A stretch of 64,000 bases of DNA, from the NCBI GenBank assembly GCA_029204225.1, contig CM055110.1:34295947-34359946 (forward strand), in the 5' to 3' direction. The notes beneath the pieces are model-generated. The model was not told the origin of the DNA. It did not search any database and saw nothing but the letters and a program-made list of their open reading frames with translations. Positions 24,343-26,265 of this stretch are shown one piece after another; the stretch's first letter is position 1; every line of letters starts with the position of its first letter. Source of the stretch: Diphasiastrum complanatum (lineage: Eukaryota; Streptophyta; Lycopodiopsida; Lycopodiales; Lycopodiaceae). Made by a program: the position numbers and the translations under genes.

Positions 24343-25060
24343 TTTCAGTAGCTTATGTTCAGACTAAAGTATGACTGTATCTGTTGCAAGTACCCCTCGA
24401 GGGTTTTAGAGCATTGCAAAGCATCTCAGGCCCTCAAAAATTCTAGATTTACAAGACATATGGGGCTCCTAAACGCCTTCCATCTGCACACACATGGTAC
24501 GCAGAAGAAAATTAGAAATACTTTCACTGTTATATAGGTCAGATAACATTGATTGAATTCAACTTAATCTATGAGAAACTTGCATAAGCCAACCAGATGC
24601 GCACTCCCTTCTTTATATTTGACCACAAAGAGTACCTTCAACTGAATCAGACTCTTCTGAAGGTGAATTAGTATCCTGTCAGACTGTACCAAATTTGCGG
24701 TTGTGGCAGTAGCAGAGGAGGGCATCACAGCCAGCAACAAATGTAGTTTGCATTTTATCCGAGCTGAGATAGCACAACATTTTCTCTTTTTTCTTCTATT
24801 TGGTGGGCTGTTTAAATCTTTTAATGTGTTTCAGTGTCCTAAAAAGTATTCAAGGTTAACTTGGCTTTTTTAAGGCATAGTTGCGTGGAGAGAGGAGGAG
24901 ATCTTTTTTTTTGGTAGATAAGTGAAGACAACAGAGTTAAGCAAAGCATCATAATTTATCACTGATCAATTTGAAGATATTTTTCAGTAGCTTATGTTCA
25001 GATTAAGGCATGGCTATATCTGTTGCAGGTACCCCTTGAGGGTTTTCGAGCATTGCAAGG
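24343..25060 (+). repeat. direct repeat pair upstream of the reverse transcriptase
   Basis: About 80 nt at 24343-24425 are repeated at about 24978-25060 in the same orientation. Shared landmarks are TTTTTCAGTAGCTTATGTTCAG, split here as TTTTTCAGTAGC and TTATGTTCAG, then TATCTGTTGCA, TACCCCT and GAGCATTGCAA. Both translate to similar peptides (MFRLKYDCICC and MFRLRHGYICC). The second copy runs into the reverse transcriptase. The first may be the 5' edge of a partial tandem copy, as Penelope-like elements often leave. Confidence 0.75.
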
Positions 25061-26052
25061 GTATCCTAAATGTGGATACATGCTTATTTTGGCAATGCGA
25101 GTCCTCGATTGATTTTTATCTCAATTTACCATCAAAGATTACCAATGTATGGGTTGCAGATATCTCTAAATGTTATGAAAACATACCTTTAGATGGCACT
25201 GATGGGCTGAAAAGTATCATGAATAAATCCATTACATATGCGTTCAAACATTCAAACAAAAGTTTTCTGAGTTTCAAATGGGAACAAGAGAGGGAGGCCT
25301 TCAAATGGTCATGGAATAATAAAAAGTCCGAAGGATGGTACAATCTCGATAAAAATCTCTTATGCTTGTGGAATGCCTTCTTCATTGACAATTGTATTGT
25401 CAGGTTAGGAAACAAAACTTGGAGACAGATTCGTGGTATACCGATGGGTTTTTCATGCTCACCTACTTGGTGTAACTGGTATCTTGCGTTCTTTGAAGCT
25501 CATTTTATTAAGAGACTGGCCAGGTTAGGTCTCAGAAAAGATATGAATGTTTTCTGTCACTCGTTTAGATATATTGATGGCATTTGATTCATTAATAATC
25601 CCATTATTGATGCGTTTATGGACAAAAAGCAAATTAGAGTACCAGATAACCCTTTCTGGATTTATCCTCTAGATTTTCTTGATATCGAAAAAAAGTCTTG
25701 TGAAGCAAACACCACCAGTTTTTTGAACATTTCGATTACTTTTAATCCAGACACCGGTGTTTATCAGCTTGCAAAGTTTGATAAAAGAAGAGACTTACCT
25801 TTTCAATACTTACAGTACATACATTTGGCTTCCAATAGGCCAGTCTACAACTCGTACAAAGTAATTATCTCCCAGATTATTTCTGCTATGTATTGCTGCA
25901 ACGATCAAGATACTTTTTTAAGAGAGGTAGCTATCTTACTTGACGCTTTTCAGAAAAATGGTTTTATGAGGGAAAAGCTTTGCCTTATCGTTAACAAACT
26001 GCTTTTGACTAATACTTTTCCAGGTTTGTCCTATGATCTACCACAGTGATTA
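24994..26052 (+). pseudogene. Penelope-like (telomerase-related) reverse transcriptase, inactivated
   Basis: One frame runs from about 24994 to TGA 26047-26049, broken only by an in-frame TGA at 25585-25587. Reverse transcriptase motifs appear in order: A, VADISKCYENIPL (about 25150-25190); B, RQIRGIPMGFSCSPTWCNWY (about 25423-25482); C, FRYIDGI (about 25564-25584). Downstream, FLNISITFNPDTGVYQLAKF and DKRRDLPFQYLQYIHL resemble the thumb region of Penelope-type enzymes. Motif C should be YIDD. The second catalytic Asp is Gly, and the stop follows two codons later, so the enzyme is dead. No GIY-YIG endonuclease follows, so it is of endonuclease-lacking type or truncated. The spacing between A and B, about 80 residues, is unlike copia or gypsy. 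N-terminal parts may be missing. Confidence 0.75.
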
Positions 26053-26067
26053 AAAGTCCGAGGGTGG

Positions 26068-26110
26068 GCAGTTAGCTATCCCTTATGGGGAGCTAACTGC
26101 CCCATAAGGG
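26068..26110 (+). other. strong, potentially bistable hairpin just after the reverse transcriptase
   Basis: CCCTTATGGGG (26080-26090) pairs perfectly with CCCCATAAGGG (26100-26110) around a 9-nt loop. Alternatively GCAGTTAGCT (26068-26077) pairs perfectly with AGCTAACTGC (26091-26100). The two helices exclude each other because they share position 26100 and the loop. The site begins 19 nt after the RT stop and 30 nt before a CT tract. Confidence 0.8.
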
Positions 26111-26140
26111 ATTCACTAGCTGCGGGTCAGTTGGTGGGTA

Positions 26141-26265
26141 CTCTCTCTCTCTCTCTCTCTCTCTCTCTCTCTCTCTCTCTCTCTCTCTCTCTCTCTCTCT
26201 CTCTCTCTCTCTCTCTCTCTCTCTCTCTCTCTCTCTCTCTCTCTCTCTCTCTCTCTCTCTCTCTC
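26141..26265 (+). repeat. (CT)62 tract at the 3' end of the Penelope-like element
   Basis: An uninterrupted CT run of 125 nt. It begins 92 nt after the RT stop codon. Confidence 0.95.

Follow-up and report, generated by a model that had tools for sequence, protein, structure and literature searches.

The window analysed here is a 64,000-nucleotide stretch of the 1.74-Gb Diphasiastrum complanatum assembly (C19:34295947-34359946), within which a reverse transcriptase (RT) sequence lies on the plus strand. Its reading frame (24991-25587) closes with ...CHSFRYIDGI and then TGA at 25585-25587, and the same frame continues open beyond the stop for 153 amino acids (25588-26049) that hold FDKRRDLPF. 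The first-pass annotation had noted motif A (ADISKCYENIPL), motif B (GIPMGFSCSPTWCNWYLAFFE), a motif C changed from D to G (YIDG, 25570-25581) with the TGA two codons on, and an open remainder, and all of these are present in the frame. The Pfam RVT_1 profile matches it weakly (E 5.9e-5, below Pfam's own cut-off), and a single-sequence AlphaFold model of the RT was uninformative (pLDDT 37.8). DNA homology to other copies of the family described below begins at 25056, leaving a 5'-truncated RT part that begins ahead of motif A and reaches the thumb (25056-26049, plus strand); over 25056-26139 the window is 97.0% identical to the copy L039. The preceding 24343-25055 shows no homology to the family and is read as lying outside the insert. 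The range first given to the feature, 24343-26265, does contain the RT, but its limits do not hold: the element starts at 25056 and passes 26265 to reach 27306. An 89-nt direct repeat sits at the 5' edge (24331-24419 = 24970-25058, 89%). Two CT arrays upstream (22634-22747 and 23366-23474), considered as flanks of the insertion, were ruled out, since homology starts at 25056.

After the RT stop comes a 12-bp hairpin (GGGCAGTTAGCT...AGCTAACTGCCC, 26066-26102, plus strand; z -4.9 for 26047-26142). When 110-nt folds of nine copies were compared, this hairpin was the best fold in five (L039, L041, L043, L045 and L046); the window and L040 prefer another pairing, and it is weaker in L044 and lost in L042. 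An Rfam match to mir-2032 at the hairpin scored 26.7 bits against a cut-off of 100 and was taken as chance. There follow, on the same strand, an internal (CT)62 array (26141-26265), found at the same place in 24 of 26 distinct family copies, and the first part of a 3' terminal repeat, or pLTR (26266-27306), with TCCAGCGATGGA motifs at 26646, 26718, 26786 and 26855. TCCAGCGATGGA forms a stem with a GCGA loop; besides its four occurrences in the window (26646-26866), exact copies exist in many, not all, family loci. The rest of the pLTR is inverted (28109-29466, minus strand), its 3' end ...AATTGTGTAT(CT)5 pointing left, and a (CT)68 array (27915-28050, minus strand) lies about 60 nt past that end. 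The plus-strand part corresponds to positions 4438-6651 of L040 and the minus-strand part to 6662-8004; as the two all but abut on L040, together they make up one 3' half with its end inverted, and we infer that 25056-27306 and 28109-29466 are a single insertion. L043 has a similar inverted 3' piece, and passages in PMC3846280 describe inverted pLTRs in Penelope-like elements (PLEs). The first-pass annotation had called this a recently dead copy. Broken it is; that it is only recently dead does not stand, since its 5' end is cut off at 25056 and its sequence is rearranged at 27306, which makes it a defective insertion.

Other repeats share the window. Remains of a Copia-type gag-pol, whose frame contains a (CT)26 array (332-383), lie at 303-2598, and those of a Helitron at 33974-37093 (Helitron_like_N, E 6.3e-44; PIF1 helicase, E 2.5e-40). 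CT-rich satellite-like repeats at 39100-42100, made of ACGGTTCTCACGG units and CT arrays, resemble the flanks of some PLE insertions, and long inverted repeats at 43413-45754 (403-nt arms, 94% complementary, and further arms) are foldback-like.

A protein search of the plant's own genome picked up 5,464 candidates at first look and returned 121 matches at 115 scored places. These 115 places are a lower bound and include the window; apart from the window copy itself, they are 54-94% identical to its RT. Given 115 such places, one of them the window, chance is excluded as the source of this RT. Motif C was read in 34 loci, a set that includes the window copy, L039 (the same locus as L011, read again) and pairs that are nearly identical: 30 carry Y(I/V)DD, two YTDD (L018/L019) and one YIVD (L022), and the window copy alone has YIDG plus a stop. 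In L026/L027, YIDD is followed by a 14-residue gap. Relatives with YIDD, in line with the earlier reading, are present in this genome; its remark that PLEs are rare in plants does not apply to D. complanatum, where two repetitive groups account for 5,464 and 1,443 first-look candidates. In a tree of 28 rows the window copy falls within a 10-row group (100/99), and with midpoint rooting all 26 family rows group against L075/L076 (100/100). Eight pairs of near-identical copies share their flanks, which rules them out as recent insertions and marks them as duplicates. No relatives turned up in viral, phage, plasmid or prokaryote collections apart from one contig titled as a Bathymodiolus symbiont (L047); one other match from these collections, at E 0.6, was taken as chance. 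Solved structures (PDB sequences) gave no meaningful match, and among the entries listed by our literature searches none describes this family.

The kinship of the family is best seen against L075 (C2:21322800-21328200, minus strand), an uninterrupted frame of 1071 amino acids with a GIY-YIG motif (YVIYNI...VYVGQT...R..EH), CxC, DK..NN and an RT with YIDD. Pfam found no domain in L075 and missed the GIY-YIG motif too; a profile of the genome's other GIY-YIG ORFs detects it at 2.8e-5 in a one-sequence search. A second locus, L076, has a 663-aa frame without GIY-YIG in that frame, and the L075 group is known in detail from these two. The family RT profile matches L075 from motif A to the thumb at E 5e-25, and the CxC-region profile matches L075 at 3.6e-5 and L076 at 8.1e-6; a partial TERT locus (L048) and seven loci chosen by best RVT_1 match, whatever their RT type, gave no significant match. 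A motif that we take to be the animal form, GIPMGTNCAP, served as a search pattern and found a single contig, L047, with a decayed RT; going by its title, this contig is probably host mussel DNA. The family profile matches L047 at 2e-7 to 3e-7, in a small target set and at a locus picked by a related motif. The L047 peptide finds the second repetitive group in the plant genome, the one to which L075 belongs (150 scored of 1,443 candidates), and four of those 150 places belong to the window family, at 1.5e-5. We take L075 and L047 to be PLEs by their motifs and architecture, and presume the N-terminal-endonuclease type for L075 on the same footing. Because the RT profile matches the GIY-YIG/CxC/RT ORF so strongly, we read the family as a PLE related to the N-terminal-endonuclease type, in a comparison made up of L075, the mussel-contig fragment, the partial TERT locus and the seven RVT_1 loci. 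This agrees with the PLE part of the original placement on the Penelope/telomerase side of the RT tree; a telomere link like that of Athena/Coprina was not seen, and the match is to an ORF with an N-terminal GIY-YIG motif and CxC.

Full elements consist of ORF1, an overlapping ORF2 (CxC domain plus RT), the hairpin, the internal (CT)n and a 3' end TAT(CT)3-5. ORF1 is a 388-aa frame in L040, and two other places have stop-free versions of 467 and 470 aa; a genome search scored at least 106 places out of 5,867 candidates. It carries CxCGxxC...H, and searches of Pfam, NCBIfam and PDB sequences gave nothing meaningful for it. ORF2 overlaps the end of ORF1 in the -1 frame with no evident ATG in L044, L042 and L039 (L045 has a stop there), and frameshift or reinitiation is a possible route to its expression; no canonical slippery heptamer was found by eye at the overlap. 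CxC followed by GHV is present in L042, L044, L045 and L046. Between subfamilies, ORF1 has a dN of 0.13-0.20, compared with 0.19-0.39 in the RT and 0.31-0.54 in the N-terminal part of ORF2; dN/dS is 0.07 for ORF1 (L040/L044) and 0.08 for the RT (L039/L044), dS being saturated or nearly so. Comparisons within subfamilies give an omega of 0.27-0.91. Low dN against near-saturated dS indicates that ORF1, the RT and the N-terminal part of ORF2 were long under purifying selection.

The absence of a GIY-YIG domain, claimed at the outset for the window copy, seems to extend to its relatives, with none recognised in ORF1 or ORF2. A motif search found none in 38 family loci, L073, L074 or window positions 22000-32000, and did find L075 and L049-L052; in a profile scan the best family stretch, in L044, was non-significant (E 0.18-0.19). 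The family thus seems to be without a GIY-YIG endonuclease, by negatives that are weak because Pfam missed the motif of L075. Short GIY-YIG ORFs such as L049-L052 are common in the genome (at least 150 scored of 471 candidates, some 27 of them on C8:0.64-2.44 Mb), and no PLE RT was seen near them in the four regions read. Canonical PLEs and Terminons have a hammerhead ribozyme in the pLTR; here Rfam at E<=10 found no hammerhead in L039, L040, L042, L044 or window 24900-28200, and a motif scan of L039-L046 and window 20001-32000 gave a single weak motif near 21008, which the element does not include.

CT arrays mark both boundaries of the terminal repeat. An internal (CT)n follows the RT in 36 of 38 loci, or 24 of 26 distinct copies (L022 and L038 are without it), and the order downstream of the RT is hairpin, (CT)n, a long 3' part and an end GAGGAACTATGTGAAATTGTGTAT(CT)n, the pLTR spanning (CT)n to the 3' end. 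Repeats are seen in L042 (1-1145 = 6758-7902, 88.6%), L044 (1-1406 = 6084-7492, 94.6%) and L046 (2044-3015 = 5713-6660, 90.2%), so that the family has pLTRs or partial tandem copies and 5' truncation, as in the PLE order. Read in L073 and L074, the left edges of the L042 and L044 terminal repeats lie at CT arrays. Five of six upstream partial copies with a visible left edge start exactly at (CT)n, with 38 units in L040 (whose upstream partial copy has an internal deletion), 89 in L041, 74 in L042, 37 in L044 and 60 in L046; L039 does not.

The 3' ends tell a similar story. All 20 sampled, of 40 scored, run into CTCTC or longer. Five are tandem junctions, in which (CT)3-5 is followed by the 5' start GCACCCTTGTGG or a close variant; the other 15 reduce to 13 distinct ends (the flanks of L055/L058 and of L056/L062 are identical), six with at least 16 CT units and seven with five or fewer. 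When L040, L042 and the window are added, 7 of 16 outer ends are long (p 2.5e-8 against the 2.2% of the window that lies in such arrays, a background taken from the window only and including two PLE-linked arrays). The L055/L058 flank looks like the part of L044 that follows the array (73-75%), and its own array may belong to another family copy, in which case the target would be another PLE; without it, 6 of 15 ends are long (p 5e-7). Long arrays are found at 7 of 16 outer ends versus none of six tandem junctions, a contrast that is not significant (Fisher p 0.07), and they may partly reflect slippage.

Empty sites give a view of the target. Joining the flanks of L042 yielded 40 scored places: two are the flanks of L042 itself, and at the other 38 the match continues across the junction at 77-82% identity. 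Eight of these paralogous sites were sampled, and six (L078-L083, of which L078 and L079 are nearly identical) have an uninterrupted (CT)4-5 at the junction in the pattern GTCAACTC-CTAGGTTTCTCTCTCTCTATCA-GGGTTTATT; L077 has an interrupted tract and L084 CTCT only. The filled site reads GTCAACTC-(CT)74-element-TAT(CT)5-GGGTTTATT. As the tracts at the empty sites are short, the (CT)74 at the 5' junction came from the element and not the target. No target site duplication was seen at this insertion; as we read the alignment, the target had a short CT tract and about 20 of its bases were replaced. For L040, no place in the genome has both flanks. One of two sampled paralogues of its left flank, L085, reads (CT)42-CGCGG, which is similar to the sequence past the element in L040, and on the left some 60 bases are missing; the other, L086, has no CT array there and a GA array further on.

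The reading that we favour, at close to an even chance, is that the window holds a defective copy of a high-copy PLE family standing near the N-terminal-GIY-YIG/CxC group, whose insertion is primed and closed on CT tracts. It builds on the observed anatomy, purifying selection between subfamilies, CT-bounded pLTRs, CT 3' ends and CT at one insertion's empty sites, and derives priming, jumping and annealing from anatomy only. Where a CT tract is nicked or broken, the 3' (CU)n of the RNA would pair with its AG strand and prime cDNA; the RT would copy a unit, jump to another RNA's 3' end, giving a tandem, and stop in the internal (CU)n; the (AG)n end of the cDNA would pair with the CT strand of the target and close the second junction. 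Terminons are proposed to use C-rich RNA repeats in this way on overhangs at telomeres; here dinucleotide tracts within chromosomes would take the place of those overhangs. Pairing of (CU)n with AG would account for the CT 3' ends, the tandem copies and the partial copies that stop inside the CT array; the nick might come from breaks, an endonuclease-bearing (EN+) relative or ORF1. A further step, which we put forward tentatively and hold to be somewhat short of probable, is that this PLE lineage shed its endonuclease and came to do without one by carrying two dinucleotide repeats, a terminal (CU)n priming on CT/AG tracts and an internal (CU)n closing the second junction.

Alternatively, the lost endonuclease could be replaced in trans, with an L075-type EN+ PLE or the short GIY-YIG repeats doing the nicking and the CT preference inherited from that nuclease. 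We consider this rather unlikely: the genome does hold an uninterrupted EN+ ORF and the many GIY-YIG ORFs counted above, and N-terminal EN+ PLEs reportedly have a microsatellite bias, but just one of the 115 RT places lies within 20 kb of any of the 150 scored GIY-YIG matches, and trans nicking leaves unexplained the partial copies whose start falls in the internal CT array. ORF1 might itself encode an endonuclease, unrecognised as such, that took the place of GIY-YIG and cleaves CT tracts; its conservation, at least that of the RT (dN 0.13 for L040/L044 versus 0.19 for L039/L044), and its CxCGxxC...H would fit, but the database searches gave no meaningful match and a structural or RNA-binding ORF1 is as likely. 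We hold the idea to be improbable. Slimmer still is the chance that these are known telomere-associated EN(-) PLEs of the Athena/Coprina kind. No endonuclease was found and EN(-) PLEs have been reported from plants, a lycophyte included, yet the family's copies are not telomeric: of 91 placed RT copies (among the 115 scored), one lies within 1 Mb of a chromosome end where 2.8 are expected, paired TTTAGGG or CCCTAAA occurs in one of 38 loci (L022), and the strong match is to an ORF with an N-terminal GIY-YIG motif. Least credible is random insertion of an element that always ends in a few CT units, with arrays that later grew by slippage. In its favour, short arrays make up 7 of 13 distinct outer ends, the window has many CT arrays and the contrast between outer ends and tandem junctions falls short of significance; against it, six of the eight sampled L042 empty sites already had (CT)4-5 at the junction and a paralogue of the L040 target has CT42 with a similar flank.

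As a PLE-type family this is a known kind of element; what is new, to judge from our literature searches, is that no endonuclease was found, together with ORF1, the CT-bounded repeats and the interstitial placement. PLEs share ancestry with telomerase, according to passages in PMC5718144. If CT-primed insertion is correct, telomerase-like priming would, in a many-copy family, have moved away from telomeres onto interstitial CT tracts, and one retroelement would be spreading CT microsatellites through a large plant genome. An endonuclease-less family dispersed along chromosome arms would link the telomere-bound EN(-) PLEs with ordinary retrotransposons, and the claim that a short repeat common to RNA and target suffices for insertion can be tested by sequence. 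With an EN+ relative and the EN-less family in one genome, nuclease loss becomes directly comparable.

Among known systems, the N-terminal EN+ PLEs (Naiad/Chlamys) share with the family pLTRs, the lack of a detected hammerhead and, taking L075 as reference, a homologous CxC domain with GHVV..D..I and an RT that is homologous as far as the thumb; the DK motif and motif A-B spacing also agree by eye. Unlike them, the family has no detected GIY-YIG in the same ORF, for which reason we do not file it as EN+, and has a separate ORF1 instead; its pLTR, moreover, is bounded by an internal (CT)n array. Among plants, EN(-) PLEs are reported from Selaginella, Pinus and Picea in passages of PMC9033089 and PMC12477314, those of Selaginella being described in the latter as telomere-associated, and the former describes conifer Dryad PLEs as EN(+) Penelope/Poseidon. 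Set side by side by description only, the family and the Selaginella, Pinus and Picea elements are both plant PLEs without a detected endonuclease, and the Dryads are plant PLEs that differ in being EN(+). Terminons/Athena, the EN(-) PLEs of bdelloid rotifers, are not known to have an endonuclease fused to the RT. Terminons are said in PMC12477314 to attach to telomeric overhangs helped by complementary RNA 3' repeats. Like them, the family has no fused endonuclease that we could find and may use short RNA 3' repeats to pair with target repeats; unlike them, it has no hammerhead found, and it would use CT tracts inside chromosomes in place of telomeric repeats.
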